From positions 1-18,509 of the forward strand of contig JAFMAW010000012.1 of the NCBI GenBank assembly GCA_029784795.1: a stretch of 18,509 nt of DNA, written 5' to 3'. The notes beneath the pieces are model-generated. The model saw only the letters and a list, made by a program, of their open reading frames with translations. It had not been told where the DNA came from and did not search any database. Below are positions 1,115 to 18,234 of this stretch, one piece after another (positions within the stretch are counted from its first letter, which is position 1; each line of letters starts with the position of its first letter). The translations under genes and the position numbers were made by a program. The stretch comes from Nitrososphaerota archaeon. GTDB lineage: Archaea > Thermoproteota > Nitrososphaeria > Nitrososphaerales > UBA183.

Positions 1115-1861
1115 ATGTTTGCACCTTCGGCAGGATATGACAGGGCGATCACGATTTTTTCGCCCGACGGCAGGCTGTACCAAGTAGAGTACGCCCTTGA
1201 GACGGTCAGGAGAGGCAACCTGGCAGTGGGGGTCCAGGCGAAGCAGGGAGTGGTGCTGGCCGTAGAAGAGAAGCAGAGGAAGCTCCAGAGTGCGGAGTCG
1301 GTCATCAAAATGTTCCAGATCGACGACCACGTCGGAGCGGTCGGAGCGGGTTACATCCCAGACGCTCGTATACAGGTGGACAACGCGCGGGTCCTGGCCC
1401 AGAGCAACAGGCTAATCTACGACGAGCCGGTCGACATCGAAGCCATAGCCAAGCGCATCGCCGACATGAACCAACAGTACACGCAGTATGCCGGCGTGAG
1501 GCCCTTCGGGGTCTCCCTCATCATAGCGGGCGTCGACGGAGCCGGACCGGTGGTCTACCTCGCTGACCCTACGGGGACGTATTCCGGGTTCCATGCCATA
1601 GCGATAGGGCAGGGGAGCGACCAGGTCAACGACTACCTGGAGAAGAGCTACTCCCCGGACCTGACCCTGGACGAAGCCGTCACCCTGGCCATAGAATGCA
1701 TCTACCTGGTGAGCGAGGACAAGAGCGGGACTTCGCACATCAAGGTCGCTGTGGTGGATGCTGAGACCAAGAAGTGGAGGCGCCTCGCCGAAGCTGAGGT
1801 AGGCAAGAGCGCGGCTGGGGCCAAGACCAAGTCAGACAAGCCGCCGGCCAAGAGCTCCTGA
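1115..1861 (+). CDS. psmA: proteasome subunit alpha
   Basis: Alpha subunit of the archaeal 20S proteasome, forming the outer heptameric rings that gate substrate entry and dock the ATPase unfoldase. The N-terminal gate motif is clear: YDRAITIFSPDGRLYQVEYA, with the conserved YDR and the RLYQVEYA helix. The body carries VGVQAKQGVVLA and RPFGVSLIIAGVD typical of the family. With the ATG at 1115 the protein has 248 residues and begins close to the YDR motif, as in other archaeal alpha subunits. An in-frame TTG at 1088 would add nine residues but lies upstream of the likely transcription start. The last roughly 20 residues form a Lys/Ala/Ser-rich, probably disordered tail. It heads a tightly spaced operon with SBDS and the exosome genes. 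No beta subunit is in the window. Confidence 0.95.
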   Translation: MFAPSAGYDRAITIFSPDGRLYQVEYALETVRRGNLAVGVQAKQGVVLAVEEKQRKLQSAESVIKMFQIDDHVGAVGAGYIPDARIQVDNARVLAQSNRLIYDEPVDIEAIAKRIADMNQQYTQYAGVRPFGVSLIIAGVDGAGPVVYLADPTGTYSGFHAIAIGQGSDQVNDYLEKSYSPDLTLDEAVTLAIECIYLVSEDKSGTSHIKVAVVDAETKKWRRLAEAEVGKSAAGAKTKSDKPPAKSS

Positions 1862-1876
1862 GAAGCGTAGGCTCAG

Positions 1877-2617
1877 ATGAGCGGGAACTTCGGTCGGGGC
1901 GGCGGAAGCTTCAAGCCGAGAACCCACGAGTCGTCGAAGTTCACCACGGTCAGGCTCACCATCGGAGGGGAGCAGTATGAGATACTGGTCAACCCAGACC
2001 CGGCCCTGTCTTACAAACAGGGGAGGAACGTCGAGCCATCCGCAGTCGTCGCCGTAGACGAGGTCTACTCGGACTCTCGGAAAGGCCTGAGGTCAAGCGG
2101 CGAGAAGCTGAAGCTCCACTTCGGGACGGATGACCCCGCCAAAGCAGCCCTCGAGGTACTGAAGCGAGGGGAACTGAACCTCACCCAGGAACAGAGGAAG
2201 AGGCTGACGGAAGAGAAGAGACGTGCGATAATAGCGGCGATTTCAAAGAACTTCGTCGACCCGAGGACCCTGCTCCCCCACCCGCCGATGAGGATAGACC
2301 AGGCCATGCTGGAGGCCAGGGTCTCTGTGGACCCGTTCCAGGACCCGAATGAGCAGATGAAGGCCGTGGTCGACGCCCTTAGGACGATACTCCCTCTGAA
2401 GTCGGAGAAGATCAGGCTCCAGGTGAAGGTGAGCGCACAGTACACCGGCCAGGCGATTGGCATCCTGAAGACCTTCGGCGAGATAGTCAAAGAGGACTGG
2501 TTAGCCGACGGGACGCTCTCCGCAATAGTAGAAATACCCGCTGGCGGACAGCCCGGCCTGCTGGACCGCCTCGGCTCGACCACGAAGGGAGCCGCACAGG
2601 TCACAGTGGTGAAATAG
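1877..2617 (+). CDS. ribosome maturation protein SBDS (SDO1)
   Basis: A 246-residue SBDS family protein, the factor that in eukaryotes works with an EF-2-like GTPase to release eIF6 from the 60S subunit and that binds the large ribosomal subunit in archaea. The N-terminal FYSH domain (about residues 20-105) carries the conserved block around YEILVNPDPALSYKQG. It is followed by the helical domain (LTQEQRKRLTEEKRRAIIAAISKNFVDPRT, with PHPPMRIDQAMLEA) and a C-terminal ferredoxin-like domain. Length is normal. It starts at ATG 1877, 15 nt after psmA, and Rrp4 follows after two bases. The psmA-SBDS-rrp4 order is part of the known archaeal exosome superoperon. Confidence 0.95.
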   Translation: MSGNFGRGGGSFKPRTHESSKFTTVRLTIGGEQYEILVNPDPALSYKQGRNVEPSAVVAVDEVYSDSRKGLRSSGEKLKLHFGTDDPAKAALEVLKRGELNLTQEQRKRLTEEKRRAIIAAISKNFVDPRTLLPHPPMRIDQAMLEARVSVDPFQDPNEQMKAVVDALRTILPLKSEKIRLQVKVSAQYTGQAIGILKTFGEIVKEDWLADGTLSAIVEIPAGGQPGLLDRLGSTTKGAAQVTVVK

Positions 2618-2619
2618 AG

Positions 2620-3306
2620 ATGCCAATGATACAGAGAAAACAGGTAATCCCGGGAGACGTCGTAGCAAAGGGGAACTACCGCTACGGGAGTTACATCGAG
2701 AAGCGCGGAGACGAGTATGTGGCCCTCAGGGTGGGGGTCGCCGAGGTGGGGAGTGACGGGATAAAGCTCAACCCATTCACCGGGCCGTACCTCCCTCGCG
2801 CCGATGACGAGGTGATCGGCAAGGTGATAGACATCAACGGCTTCGGCTGGGTAATAGACATCAACTCGTGCTTCGATGGCTTCCTACCAGCCTCGTTCGT
2901 CTTCGGGAGGGACTTCTCCCCCGCGACCCACGACCTTTCAAGCAAGTTCGGGGTGGGGGACATCCTGGGGACAAGGATAGAGGCCTTCGAGAGGTCCAGG
3001 GACCCGCAGCTGAGCATCAGGGGCGAAGGCTACGGGAAGATCTCGTCGGGGGAAATCGTTAAGATATCACCAACGAAGGTCCCCCGAGTAATCGGGAAAA
3101 GAGGTTCGATGATCAACCTAATCAGCGAAAAGACAGGATGCGACATCAGGGTAGGCCAGAACGGCGTGATAGTCGTGGACGGGAGCCCTGAGGGAATTAC
3201 GAAGGCTGTCAAGGCCATCAGGCTCGTGGAAGAGGAGACTCACGCGCCGGACTTGATGTCCAAGGTAGAGGCGGCTCTAGGAGGGAGCGTCGTTGGCGGG
3301 AACTAA
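2620..3306 (+). CDS. rrp4: exosome complex RNA-binding subunit Rrp4
   Basis: A 228-residue cap subunit of the archaeal RNA exosome; it forms a trimer on the Rrp41/Rrp42 ring and feeds RNA into the pore. An N-terminal domain is followed by an S1 domain (about residues 62-135, with VIGKVIDINGFGWVIDIN) and a KH domain (about 143-205) carrying the GKRG loop (159-162). These three parts distinguish Rrp4 from Csl4, which has a zinc ribbon in place of KH. The gene starts two bases after the SBDS stop and its 3' end overlaps the rrp41 start by 14 nt, indicating coupled translation. Length and domain order are standard. Confidence 0.95.
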   Translation: MPMIQRKQVIPGDVVAKGNYRYGSYIEKRGDEYVALRVGVAEVGSDGIKLNPFTGPYLPRADDEVIGKVIDINGFGWVIDINSCFDGFLPASFVFGRDFSPATHDLSSKFGVGDILGTRIEAFERSRDPQLSIRGEGYGKISSGEIVKISPTKVPRVIGKRGSMINLISEKTGCDIRVGQNGVIVVDGSPEGITKAVKAIRLVEEETHAPDLMSKVEAALGGSVVGGN

Positions 3307-4048
3307 GAAGGAACTCATAGACAAGAACGGCGTCAGGCTCGACGGCAGGAAGTGGAACGAGCTCCGGCCGATAAAGCTGCAGGTGGGCATCATGAAGAAC
3401 GCCGACGGGTCGGCCTACATCGAGTGGGGCAAGAACAAGATCATGGCCGCGGTGTACGGGCCGAAGGAGGTGCACCCCAAGCACCAGGTCCTGCCTGACA
3501 GGGCCTTGCTCAGGTGCAGGTACCACATGGCGCCCTTCTCGGTCGACGAGAGGAAGAACCCCGCGCCGTCTAGGAGAGAGATAGAGATCTCGAAGGTGAT
3601 CAGAGAGGCGCTTGTGCCCGCGGTGATCGTGGAAGACTATCCGAGGACGGCCATAGAGGTCTGGGTCGAAGTGCTGCAGTCCGACGGAGGGTCGAGGGTC
3701 GCCGGAATCACGGCGGCTTCGCTGGCCCTGGCGGACGCCGGGATCAACATGAGAGACCTCGTGGTCGGCTGCTCCTGTGGCCTCATCGGGGAGCAGGTGG
3801 TATCTGACCTGGACGACACCGAGGACAAGGAGGGGAACGGGGACATGCCCGTGGCGATCATGCCGAACCTCGGACTGGTGTCGCTCCTCCAGGTGGACGG
3901 AGTATACACCCGGGAGAACTTCCAGAAGGCCTTTGAGCTTGCCATCGAGAAGGGGAAGCAGATCTACCAGATGCAGCGGGAGGCCCTGACGACGAGGTTC
4001 TTCGGGGGCGAAGCCAAGACGACTGAGGTTGAGGAGGTGGCCGAGTAG
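3293..4048 (+). CDS. rrp41: exosome catalytic subunit Rrp41 (RNase PH fold)
   Basis: A 251-residue phosphorolytic 3'-5' exoribonuclease subunit of the hexameric exosome ring. The RNase PH fold signatures are VRLDGRKWNELRPIK at the N terminus and LVVGCSCGLIGEQVVSDL in the core. Asp178 and Asp184 (DKEGNGD) match, in spacing and context, the two catalytic aspartates known from Sulfolobus Rrp41 (D182/D188). Arg94/Arg95 in SRREIE fit the RNA/phosphate-binding arginines. It starts at TTG 3293 inside the end of rrp4, with a GGAGGG ribosome binding site at 3280-3285. Rrp42 begins immediately after the stop. Confidence 0.95.
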   Translation: MAGTKKELIDKNGVRLDGRKWNELRPIKLQVGIMKNADGSAYIEWGKNKIMAAVYGPKEVHPKHQVLPDRALLRCRYHMAPFSVDERKNPAPSRREIEISKVIREALVPAVIVEDYPRTAIEVWVEVLQSDGGSRVAGITAASLALADAGINMRDLVVGCSCGLIGEQVVSDLDDTEDKEGNGDMPVAIMPNLGLVSLLQVDGVYTRENFQKAFELAIEKGKQIYQMQREALTTRFFGGEAKTTEVEEVAE

Positions 4049-4864
4049 ATGTCGATGATGAAGAAGAACTACGTGGTAGAGGCCATCAGGAAGGCACAGC
4101 TGCTACAGCTGCTAGCAAGCGGCAAGCGCCTCGACGAGAGAGCCCTCGACCAGCCCAGGAACCTGAAGATTGAGACCGGAGTCATCCCGAAGGCCAACGG
4201 CTCAGCCAGGGTGACCCTAGGGAACACCCAGGTGCTGGCAGGGGTGAAGATAGCCACCGGGATACCATTCCCTGACACGCCAGACAAAGGGATACTGATG
4301 GTGAACGCCGAGATACTCCCGATGTCGTCCCCCTACGCCGAAGCGGGGCCGCCAAGCGAGGATGCGATAGAGCTGGCAAGGGTGACGGACAGGGGCATAC
4401 GGGAGTCTGAGATGGTCGACCTGACCAAGCTCGGTCTCATCCCCGGGAAATCGGTCATCGCGGTGTTCGTGGACTGCAACATCATGAACGTCGACGGTAA
4501 CCTGTTCGACGCCACCAGCTACGCCGTGGTGTCCGCGCTCAGGACCGCCAAGATGAAGAAGTACGTGATAAAGGACGACAAGGTTGAAGCCACCGACGAG
4601 CTGATCCCGGTCCCGGTCGAGAAAACACCGGTGTCAGTCACCATAGCCAGGTTGGGCGACAGGCTGGTGGTCGACCCCAGCGCGGAAGAGGAAGCGTCCA
4701 TGGACATGAGGATTACCATAACCACGGACGACGATGGGAACATCTGTGCGAGCCAGAAGGGCGAAGCGAGCACCATCAGCCCGGAGCAGGTGCTGCGGGC
4801 GGCGGACACATCCATAAGCGTCGGCAAGGCGATCAGGGCCAAGATACTCGAGGCGACCAGGTAG
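4049..4864 (+). CDS. rrp42: exosome non-catalytic ring subunit Rrp42
   Basis: A 271-residue RNase PH-fold subunit that pairs with Rrp41 in the exosome ring. It contributes RNA-binding arginines but lacks the catalytic aspartates. It begins with KRLDERALDQPRNLKIE and has the Rrp42-type block VFVDCNIMNVDGNLFDATSYAVVSAL where Rrp41 has its active-site strand. The ATG at 4049 directly abuts the rrp41 stop, with GGAGG about 10 nt upstream inside rrp41. Its stop overlaps the L37Ae start by one base. Length is typical for the family. Confidence 0.94.
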   Translation: MSMMKKNYVVEAIRKAQLLQLLASGKRLDERALDQPRNLKIETGVIPKANGSARVTLGNTQVLAGVKIATGIPFPDTPDKGILMVNAEILPMSSPYAEAGPPSEDAIELARVTDRGIRESEMVDLTKLGLIPGKSVIAVFVDCNIMNVDGNLFDATSYAVVSALRTAKMKKYVIKDDKVEATDELIPVPVEKTPVSVTIARLGDRLVVDPSAEEEASMDMRITITTDDDGNICASQKGEASTISPEQVLRAADTSISVGKAIRAKILEATR

Positions 4865-5088
4865 TGCCGAAGGCGAAGGAGAGCTTCAGAGGCCTCGGCG
4901 CGAAGTACGGCGGCACCCTCAGGAAGAGGTACGCCAGGGTCTTCAGGACGCTGAAGCAGGCCAGGTCGTGTCCGGCTTGCGCGAGCAAGAGGCTCGCCCG
5001 GACCTCCTCGGGGATCTGGAAGTGCAAGTCCTGCGGCTACACCGTGGCCGGAGGGGCATTTGACCTCACCCAGGCGAAGGCAAGATAG
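4864..5088 (+). CDS. rpl37ae: 50S ribosomal protein L37Ae (eL43)
   Basis: A 74-residue zinc-ribbon protein of the large ribosomal subunit. The four metal cysteines are Cys36/Cys39 (CPAC) and Cys54/Cys57 (CKSC), followed by the family ending GYTVAGGAF. The N terminus contains the expected basic FRGLGAKYGGTLRKRY stretch. It starts at GTG 4864, sharing one base with the rrp42 stop. In many archaeal genomes the RNA polymerase subunit RpoP (also a small zinc ribbon) comes next, but here the Pcc1-like frame follows with an overlap and no RpoP is present. Confidence 0.94.
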   Translation: MPKAKESFRGLGAKYGGTLRKRYARVFRTLKQARSCPACASKRLARTSSGIWKCKSCGYTVAGGAFDLTQAKAR

Positions 5089-5299
5089 GCCCATAGAGTC
5101 AGTCGAACTGAAGATCACGTTCCACGCTGACAGGCAGACCGCCGCGAAGATAGCCGAGAAGTTCCCCTCGGCCATAGTAAGAGGAGGCAAGTGCGTCGTG
5201 AGCATCGAAGGGAGCAGCCCGGGCGAGGTCGCCGAGAGGGCCAAGGCCCTGCTAGAGCAGGTGAGATCCGTCGAGTCCAGCTCGAAAGGATTTAAGTAG
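5060..5299 (+). CDS. KEOPS complex subunit Pcc1-like protein
   Basis: A 79-residue alpha/beta protein: a basic start, a strand (VELKITFHAD), a helix (RQTAAKIAEKFPSAI), strands (GKCVVSIEG) and a helix (SPGEVAERAKALLEQVRSV). Size, secondary-structure order and position between L37Ae and prefoldin beta match Pcc1, the dimerisation subunit of the KEOPS complex that makes the t6A modification on tRNAs. The TTG at 5060 overlaps L37Ae by 29 nt and its ribosome binding site (GGAGGGG, 5050-5056) is unusually close, so the true start may lie a little downstream. The sequence is short and divergent, so the family call rests partly on neighbours. Confidence 0.7.
   Translation: MTSPRRRQDRPIESVELKITFHADRQTAAKIAEKFPSAIVRGGKCVVSIEGSSPGEVAERAKALLEQVRSVESSSKGFK
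5291..5296 (+). promoter_or_regulatory. internal TATA-like box before prefoldin beta
   Basis: TTTAAG inside the last codons of the Pcc1 gene, about 30 nt before the TTG at 5324. No Shine-Dalgarno sequence precedes that TTG, so a near-leaderless transcript would fit. It would let the chaperone subunit be expressed separately from the exosome genes. Confidence 0.4.
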
Positions 5300-16009: not shown

Positions 16010-18234
16010 CTATTCCTTGTCGATGAATTCCTCGGCCTTCGGCGGGTCCGGCGGGAGTCCCTTGCGCTTCCTGATGTCCGTGACCAGCCCCCACAGCATG
16101 TTCTGAGGGACCGCCTGCCACGTCTTGAAGTGGGTGTTCCAGACAGCCTTGCCCGCCGTGGCTCCTCTCATCTTCTCGCTCAGGTCGAACGTCTCGGCCG
16201 CGGGGATCTCTCCCTCCACCACTGTCATGACCTCCTTCTGGTCTATCCTGACCAGCTTCCCCCTCTTCGCGCTGATGACCCCGGTCACCGCGCCTATGAG
16301 GTCTGACGGCCCCTTCACCTCTATCCCCAGTATGGGCTCCAGGAGAGTGGGGTTGGCTGACAGCATGGCCCCGAGTATGGCCCTCCGTGAAGCGGGCATG
16401 AGCTGGGCGTAGGTCCGGTGGGCTGGGTCCTCGTGGGGGACGAAGTTGGTGAGTGCCACCTTGACCCCTCGGGTGAACTCGTAGGCGAGCGGCCCGTTCT
16501 TCATGATGTCGTCGAAGCCTGCCCTGATGGAGTCCATCGACTCCTGCAGGAACTGGACCCCCTTGGTGACCTCGGTCAGGATGTTGCCCCTCTCGTCGAC
16601 GGCCTGGAAGTTGCGGGCCTGGTCGGGGTCCCATCCGTGGTCGCGGAGGGTCTTGATCACCCCCTTCGTCTCCACGTTCTCGCTTATGGTCCCGTTGCGG
16701 ATTAGCTCGACGACGTCGGGCTCAAGGGGCTCGACCTCGATGAAGATCTTGTTGTGCCTGTTAGGAGACCTGGCCATGATGGGGCCGGCGCGCGCGCGGA
16801 TGGTCTCCCTGTAGTTGATGATTGGCGGCGAGGTGATGATCTCCAGCCCCGCCTGCTGAATCTGCGTGGTGGCTATCTCGAGGTGGAGCACCCCCATCCC
16901 TGCCATGAGGGTCTCCCCGGACTCCTGGTTGATCGTTATGACGAGGTTCGGGTCCTCGATGTTGAGCCTCCGCATCACCTCGACGAGCTTGGGGAGATCC
17001 CTCGGGTGCTTCGCCTCCACCGCCACAGTGACGACGGGCTCGCTGACATAGTGGATGGACTCGAACGTGGCGACCCCCTTCTGGTTCGAGATGGTCTCCC
17101 CCGACCTGATGTCCAGGCCGAGGAGCGCCGGGATGTTACCCGCAGGGAGCGAATCGACTATCTCCCGCTGAAAGCCCATGAATATCTGGACCGACTGTAT
17201 CTTCCCCTCTCTCTTCGAGTTGAGAAGGTAGACCGTGTCGCCGTTGCTGACGCTGCCGGAGAAGAGCCTCCCGGTGGCCACGAGCCCCGCGGCGGGGTCG
17301 ACGACCACGTTGGTGACCATCATGACCGTGGGTCCGTTCTCGTCGCAGGCGAGGAGGGCCTTCCCTACGTCGCTGTTGAGGTCCCCCTGTGGCCAGATCT
17401 TCGGGATGCGGTAGGTCTGGGCGACGTGAGGAGGCGGATGGTGCCTGACGACCATGCCCAGCAGAGCCTCGTGGAGAGGGAGCTTCTTGCCGAGCTCCTC
17501 CGGAGTCGAACTCTGATACGCGTTGATGATGTCCTTGAACGACATCCCCGCGGCCTTCGCCATGTCGAAGTTGAATCCCCACTTGTCCTTCGATGACCCG
17601 AACGCGACCTGGGCGTCCTGGACCGAGACCTTCCACTTCTGCTTGTACTCCGGTTCGGCGTATGTCTCGACGAGACGGTTGAAGTCCCTCACGATGCCGA
17701 AGAGCCACTCCTGCATCTTCTCAGGGGAGAGGCGGAGCTCCTTGATCAGCCGGTCGATTTTGTTGATGTAGACGACGGGGCGGACGCGCTCTTCAAGGGC
17801 CGAACGGGTCACAGTTTCGGTCTGGGTCATAATGGATTCGACGGCGTCGACTACGACAATTGCGCCGTCAACCGCCCGTAAGCTTCGAACTACCTTGCCG
17901 GAAAAATCAATGTGTCCGGGAGTATCAATCAGGTTGATGACATAGGGCTTCCCCGCGGACTCGTAGTACAGCGTCACGTTGGCGGCTTTGATGGTCATCT
18001 GTCTTTGCTGCTCGAGTTCCATGTAGTCGAGAGCTAACGCTTGCCCTGCCACCGAAGGCGACAACATGCCAGTCGCAGCTAGGAGACTATCGCTTGTGGT
18101 TGTCTCTATGGCAACGCCGAATGACTATCGGCGTTGATACCATGGTCCACGTGAGCGATGATTCCAAGGTTGCGTATCTGGTCCTTGTTGTGGACTATCT
18201 TCAGGGCTTCTGCTGTCGTCTTGAACTTCGGCAT
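16010..18234 (-). CDS. fusA: elongation factor 2, gene interrupted by a 32-nt intron in the P-loop
   Basis: Archaeal EF-2, the GTPase that translocates tRNA and mRNA on the ribosome. Two exons are needed: 18234-18138 (32 codons plus one base) and 18105-16010. Joined, they give 730 residues, the normal length. Exon 1 reads MPKFKTTAEALK through IIAHVDHG; the junction codon is AAG for Lys33, completing the G1 loop AHVDHGKTT. Further G motifs are DTPGH (93-97) and NKID (147-150). Domain IV has the diphthamide-type His595, but in AHRTYAQ and not the usual HRGPAQ. Without splicing, translation from ATG 18234 stops after 42 codons, and starting at the internal ATG 18067 would lose the P-loop. A TATA-like box lies 25 nt before ATG 18234. 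The aminopeptidase gene follows after 64 nt. Confidence 0.9.
18106..18137 (-). other. candidate bulge-helix-bulge (BHB) intron in EF-2
   Basis: A 32-nt insert (phase 1) in codon 33. In RNA sense it contains a 9-bp stem, CAACGCCGA with TCGGCGTTG, and a 7-nt loop TAGTCAT. Exon ATGG (18143-18140) pairs with intron CCAT (18111-18108) as the 4-bp central helix. The flanking 3-nt bulges are TAT (18139-18137) and AGA (18107-18105). Cutting after the second base of each bulge (TA^T and AG^A), as tRNA-splicing endonuclease does, rejoins GGT-A with AG-ACA to give Gly-Lys-Thr. The outer helix is weak: one C-G pair next to the bulge, then GTGG/CCAC and ATCGCT/AGCGAT in the exons after internal loops, so it is a relaxed BHB. 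Confidence 0.85.

Follow-up and report, generated by a model that had tools for sequence, protein, structure and literature searches.

A predicted bulge-helix-bulge intron in the EF-2 gene of a Nitrososphaerota archaeon and inserts at neighbouring codons in its relatives

An insert in the P-loop codon of EF-2

The window, the whole 18,509-nt stretch of DNA that we analysed (contig JAFMAW010000012.1, from a Nitrososphaerota archaeon), carries a gene for elongation factor 2 (EF-2) on its minus strand. A 32-nt insert interrupts the Lys33 codon of this gene, within the P-loop motif AHVDHGKTT. The features are listed in the order in which the gene is read; a caret marks a predicted cut.

18234-16010, minus strand: EF-2 gene (direct reading)
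18138..18234, minus strand: EF-2 exon 1, 97 nt, from the ATG to base 1 of the Lys33 codon, MPKFKTTAEALKIVHNKDQIRNLGIIAHVDHG + A
18147..18159, minus strand: outer helices, exon strands on the 5' side, ATCGCT and GTGG (folding)
18140..18143, minus strand: exon strand of the central 4-bp helix, ATGG (folding and geometry)
18137..18139, minus strand: 5' bulge, TA^T, with the cut predicted at 18138/18137 (geometry)
18106..18137, minus strand: predicted bulge-helix-bulge (BHB) intron, 32 nt, at the sole best-scoring junction, with the canonical cut after bulge base 2
18128..18136, minus strand: 5' arm of the inner intron helix, CAACGCCGA (folding and geometry)
18112..18120, minus strand: 3' arm of the inner intron helix, TCGGCGTTG (folding and geometry)
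18108..18111, minus strand: intron strand of the central 4-bp helix, CCAT (folding and geometry)
18106..18108, minus strand: in-frame TAG within the intron (direct reading)
18105..18107, minus strand: 3' bulge, AG^A, with the cut predicted at 18106/18105 (geometry)
18089..18099, minus strand: outer helices, exon strands on the 3' side, CCAC and AGCGAT (folding)
16010..18105, minus strand: EF-2 exon 2, 2096 nt, starting AG ACA ACC ACA and running to the stop; 697 aa from Thr34

The profile of exon 2 is that of an ordinary EF-2, with GTP_EFTU and EFG domains (Pfam). When the exons are joined, they give 731 codons including the stop and restore GKTTTSDSLL; the joined protein scores 155, versus -29 for the unspliced one. 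The best junction is unique (1 tie). When the insert is retained, translation ends at the TAG at 18108-18106. An earlier, sequence-only reading of this DNA had claimed an insert that splits the Lys33 codon, an in-frame TAG at this position and a single correct junction; direct reading and protein restoration bear out all of this, only one placement giving the top protein score.

At the junction fixed by the protein, the geometry is ATGG TA^T CAACGCCGA-loop-TCGGCGTTG CCAT AG^A, the intron hairpin having 9 bp and the loop TAGTCAT. The insert has features that define a BHB intron: two 3-nt bulges, a 4-bp exon-intron helix and an intron-internal helix, and a cut after the second base of each bulge gives the exact product. 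The hairpin, the ATGG/CCAT helix and the bulges TAT and AGA are as first described. None of 882 shifted placements in the window (within 15 nt of both sites) matched the geometry score. The insert with its flanks, 71 nt in all, has a folding energy of -27.1 kcal/mol, lower than 200/200 dinucleotide shuffles (z -4.48); in a context of 131 nt the fold is less exceptional (z -1.89, 14/200 shuffles equally good). The outer exon-exon helix consists of one C-G pair, an asymmetric internal loop, then GTGG/CCAC and ATCGCT/AGCGAT. These two longer-range pairings, also proposed earlier, do close the 71-nt fold, but the outer helix is weak and not contiguous. For this reason the insert is an unconventional (relaxed) BHB.

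Two other kinds of element were considered for the insert. A group I, group II or other Rfam intron found no Rfam match in the window at gathering scores, and an intein is ruled out by a length of 32 nt with an in-frame TAG.

Related assemblies and splicing enzymes

The insert is identical in the EF-2 regions of three assemblies: G001 (the assembly that has all sampled words of the window), G019 and G091. The intron-bearing records L032 (FK5_bin.27) and L033 (LSA3.bin14) belong with G019 and G091. A 25-nt intron core occurs once in each of the three assemblies and is absent from G005 and G024. Looking for a mobile source, we found no second place for the core in G001, G019 or G091 at up to 3 mismatches, and no exact match among the viral contigs searched.

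Of 25 genus members with a readable site, 20 have no interruption; the other five, G001, G019, G091, G025 and G113, have one. The G025 insert (31 nt) also lies in the Lys33 codon and has another sequence; the G113 insert (29 nt) lies inside the Asp30 codon. The relatives thus include EF-2 genes both with and without an insert at codon 33, the comparison that the sequence-only reading had suggested. We found no second intact EF-2 in G001 (65% complete) or G091 (90% complete), each having one strong match, and this too agrees with what had been anticipated. A weaker second match in G001 is an intact frame of 595 residues, which on reading appears to be an IF-2-like GTPase. Frames of this paralog measure 1117-1124 aa in G007, G010, G015, G018 and G025 and ~600 aa in most others; a further intein is possible in the five long ones.

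Could the gene simply be broken, a pseudogene or a product of sequencing or assembly error from which no spliced product arises? The frame is interrupted and G001 has just one strong EF-2 match, as such a reading would have it. EF-2 is, however, indispensable to the cell. Exon 2 is full length and its protein 99% identical to the intact EF-2 of G005, and removal of each of 49 other inserts (below) likewise gives back the protein, their junctions having BHB geometry. An assembly error in particular, which had been named as grounds for dropping the intron, is unlikely because the insert is identical in three assemblies. We give a broken gene very little credence.

A BHB intron calls for its enzymes. 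The bearer of the window's own intron, G091, has two splicing-endonuclease genes (PF01974) and RtcB. One subunit, L227, keeps a Tyr, His, Lys pattern (VYEHGPGIDHAPY and TVRKQF), which we take to be the catalytic triad, and matches solved splicing endonucleases, best of all 3p1z_B (E 3.7e-42) and 3ajv; the other subunit, L228, is without the His. The subunit type, a point on which the sequence-only reading had advised a check, is thus a two-subunit set. Two PF01974 genes are also found in G113, in 16/16 genomes of one set (13 with an intron, 3 without) and in 5/7 genomes of another, in which G001 (65% complete) has one and G019 (60% complete) none. The sole endonuclease subunit found in the incomplete G001 bin is the one without the His. 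RtcB is found in 6/7 genomes of the latter set (present in G001, none in G019) and also in G113. According to the part of PMC4090602 that we draw on, Thaumarchaeota have alpha2beta2 splicing endonucleases.

With these enzymes, the two-subunit endonuclease would cleave the EF-2 mRNA at the two bulges, after which the exons would likely be ligated by RtcB to give an uninterrupted EF-2 message. On an unspliced message, translation would stop inside the intron, and no EF-2 with a damaged P-loop would be made.

The window's EF-2 differs from its relatives in one further respect. Exon positions 300-400 (window 17802-17902) are 24-38% different per 50 nt from all 11 relatives compared, the changes hitting residues that these relatives keep (for example FSGKVVRSL versus FTGKVTRSL in L004), and positions 400-700 are 1% different from L004. 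The gene is perhaps a mosaic formed by recombination.

Predicted introns at codons 22-37 across the phylum

We surveyed the order (400 genomes, 359 with EF-2) and the phylum (151 genomes; 126 genomes outside the order with EF-2), taking as results the best-scoring matches listed. In two batches, 66 five-prime regions or loci were read, some of them one gene fetched twice. The larger batch of 46 regions gave 39 BHB introns, 1 intein, 5 intact sites and 1 region that was too short; these regions were picked as seemingly interrupted or stop-bearing, with a few controls, and the counts are hence not a frequency. Outside the order, 18 suspicious and 2 control regions gave 17 BHB introns and 3 intact sites. 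At least 17/126 EF-2 genomes outside the order therefore have a BHB intron at the site, a count that could miss introns with a length that is a multiple of three and no stop and that leaves out partial EF-2 matches at contig ends.

In all, we collected 50 distinct introns, the window's included, in 19 families (the family label of L070, AcS1-27, was guessed from identity and has no effect on this count). They measure 16 to 63 nt (median 31) and lie at seven exact junctions within EF-2 codons 22-37:

Asn22, phase 1: 24 introns
Asn22, phase 2: 5 introns
Between His28 and Val29: 6 introns
Asp30: 1 intron
Lys33, phase 1: 8 introns
Lys33, phase 2: 5 introns
Ser37: 1 intron

Six Asn22 introns of one genus (L109-L114, family f2) have common stems and variable loops, with lengths from 37 to 63 nt.

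Among the matches listed in the two surveys, no insert-like interruption was found elsewhere in EF-2. Four listed genes have stops off the site (G105, G441, G132 and G135); read in frame, none has an insert. G105 (L230) has a mid-gene point stop and G441 (L202) a second point stop besides its intron stop, both in otherwise complete EF-2 frames, and the stops of G132 and G135 are close to the C-terminal end. The mid-frame point stops of G105 and G441 are TAA and TGA. The introns found are thus confined to codons 22-37, among the matches listed.

The BHB geometry recurs at these junctions. The protein left 1 to 7 placements per intron; wherever there was a choice, we used the placement that scored best as a BHB, which slightly favours the motif, and kept tied placements out of the null of shifted placements. 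Over the 50 introns, the real geometry score was reached by 176/43055 shifted placements. For 31/50 introns there were none; for the other 19 at least one shifted placement was equally good, the worst cases being L108 (18/551), L097 (13/852) and L116 (10/839). The central helix varies between species: ATGG/CCAT, ACGG/CCGT, CGGG/CCCG, TGGG/CCCA, TTCG/CGAA, TCCG/CGGA, CAGG/CCTG and GCCC/GGGT. It is complete in 46/50 own pairs (the exceptions are L070, L115, L120 and L116) versus 153/2042 swapped pairs, in which introns were exchanged between species with a differing exon strand. Thus the exon-intron helix is kept by compensatory change across species.

These results also bear on a second way of doing without splicing, a programmed hop of the ribosome over the insert, as in T4 gene 60, that leaves the RNA uncut. 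The hairpin and the stop codon after a Gly codon resemble a bypass site. Bypass needs complete codons on both sides, however, and the window's insert divides that of Lys33 as A^AG. On the 3' side of the insert the triplet before ACA is GAG, and a hop cannot yield Lys. In addition, the BHB-preferred junction splits a codon in 44/50 introns, and the compensated exon-intron helix tracks the BHB cut geometry at all seven junctions. We therefore regard bypass as extremely improbable.

Taken together, protein restoration, geometry, compensatory change, the three identical assemblies, the failure to find a second EF-2 in G001 and G091, and the endonuclease and RtcB genes of G091 support the BHB reading. 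The window's insert is very likely a BHB intron of the EF-2 mRNA that would be removed by cleavage and ligation. The original proposal of such an intron is supported, and the intron turns out to be one of many in this gene.

Stop codons, turnover and possible roles of the introns

All 50 introns have a stop in frame with exon 1, like the TAG of the window; the other two frames have one in 12 and 22 introns. Expected numbers are 21.4 (mononucleotide shuffles) and 24.6 (helix-keeping shuffles). Introns with a length that is not a multiple of three are detectable regardless of a stop; 32/32 of them have one in frame, versus 16.3 expected, and by group the same subset gives 20/20 versus 9.5 expected. 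We give no p-value because related introns are not independent. Selection for the unspliced EF-2 message to end translation early is likely on these counts. The stops fit the coupling of translation capacity to splicing activity that the sequence-only reading had put forward as a possibility; they also fit simple protection against the translation of unspliced RNA.

The site appears to have changed state many times. On an EF-2 tree of the order there were at least 17 state changes (12 for presence alone), after a misrooting fragment (palsa1368) and the duplicates NCgw1048, G012 and G010 had been dropped. The phylum sample, with 13 congeners thinned beforehand and G081 left out, gave at least 24 changes (19 for presence alone); this is a quick single-gene tree with 24/94 forks open and an outgroup that does not form a single clade, and its change counts give no more than rough guidance. 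The Asn22 phase 1 form is found both inside the window's order and beyond it, and many of its introns have the common core T[TC]CG AAA GG ... CC CG[AG]A. Two of the families outside the order with this form (f33 and f51) cluster with a pair of records, themselves uninterrupted, whose titles read Bathyarchaeota. With seven changes on the phylum tree, the form could be either old with many losses or repeatedly gained. Families f8 and f10 had no interruption at the site among the matches listed.

Two relatives carry another kind of element here. In L137 (G030; 1190-5215) and L059 (1312-5094), an intein lies directly after Lys33, the codon split by the window's intron. Both match Pfam Intein_splicing, and a LAGLIDADG domain scores above the cut-off in the L137 intein and just below it in the L059 intein. 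The RtcB match of G025 (G025:C109:23609-26422) comes in two pieces ~1.5 kb apart within one 1108-residue open frame, and this RtcB looks like another intein carrier. EF-2 is apparently the commonest target of thaumarchaeal casposons, going by the relevant part of PMC6563490.

What might the introns do? They may be neutral or selfish insertions into a hot spot that contribute nothing to expression, their stops being only protective. The 20 genus members without an insert, the many state changes on the EF-2 tree and the inteins, which mark the site as insertion-prone in two relatives, speak for this account. On the other hand, 50/50 introns lie in codons 22-37 with no insert elsewhere among the matches listed, and the universal in-frame stops imply selection on unspliced RNA, which still allows the intron itself to be neutral. 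On balance we think that this account is probably right. Alternatively, the intron could be a regulatory switch, in which the supply of EF-2 depends on how much of its message is spliced and is thereby tied to the tRNA-splicing machinery. That introns recur at a single place in one gene essential for translation, each with a stop in frame, would suit a switch; the uninterrupted f8 and f10 among the matches listed, and most of the genus without an intron, would not. We consider a switch possible but rather unlikely. We are more doubtful about a wider version, in which EF-2 would be a general splicing checkpoint of the phylum: a tRNA-type intron with its own stop would have been put into the P-loop stretch again and again in evolution, active translocase would be made only as long as the enzymes of tRNA splicing are at work, and the Asn22 form would predate the split of the order from its neighbours, Bathyarchaeota-like lineages included.

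Introns of this kind are already known. A cbf5 pre-mRNA intron was reportedly described by Watanabe in 2002. The cbf5 introns of Desulfurococcales and Sulfolobales (Yokobori 2009, PMC2738675) are the closest known system: according to that paper they are, two exceptions aside, predicted unconventional BHBs, which should be cleavable by the hetero-oligomeric enzyme, and the cuts are predicted to fall after the second bulge residue and before the third. The introns described here are in EF-2, with its GTP_EFTU and EFG domains, instead of a pseudouridine synthase gene, occur in other lineages, and have seven junctions within 16 codons and an in-frame stop in all 50 collected. Splicing of cbf5 was demonstrated by cDNA in several species; that of EF-2 is predicted from DNA. 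Archaeal tRNA and rRNA BHB introns are alike in motif and predicted enzymes, but the EF-2 intron is part of an mRNA and so of a message open to ribosomes before it is spliced. The BHB of HVO_1309 in Haloferax (PMC7714728) likewise concerns an mRNA cut by the splicing endonuclease, but, on the evidence of the excerpt used, it lies in the 5' UTR, whereas the EF-2 insert interrupts coding sequence. The inteins in P-loop GTPases, such as those of L137 and L059, differ in being spliced as protein from an open frame; the EF-2 intron would be spliced as RNA.

Searches of open PubMed Central listed no paper on an EF-2 intron. Cbf5 is the sole archaeal mRNA with a BHB intron named in the part of PMC4810243 that we cite and, as of 2020, the sole one reported besides its own 5' UTR case in that of PMC7714728; a 2025 paper on splicing endonucleases cites the cbf5 work (PMC12397907, in part). 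What is new is the host gene, EF-2, together with the spread of its introns, their seven closely spaced junctions and the stops that they contain. If the BHB reading is true, EF-2 would join cbf5 as a second protein-coding gene carrying archaeal introns, and would do so in far more lineages of the phylum than expected. It would also mean that introns have come and gone repeatedly in a single essential gene, which would offer a test bed for gain and loss without a spliceosome. The stops in all 50 introns would point to selection on unspliced RNA where ribosomes reach the message at once.

EF-2 is used as a phylogenetic marker. Among 120 EF-2 proteins listed, at least 7 (P0031, P0057-P0062) have 684 residues. 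A 729-residue EF-2 would come out at this length if its start were placed at the first Met in exon 2 (in the window the same start gives 685). The annotations of these 684-residue proteins may thus lack the P-loop, which suggests that EF-2 is annotated without it in some lineages.
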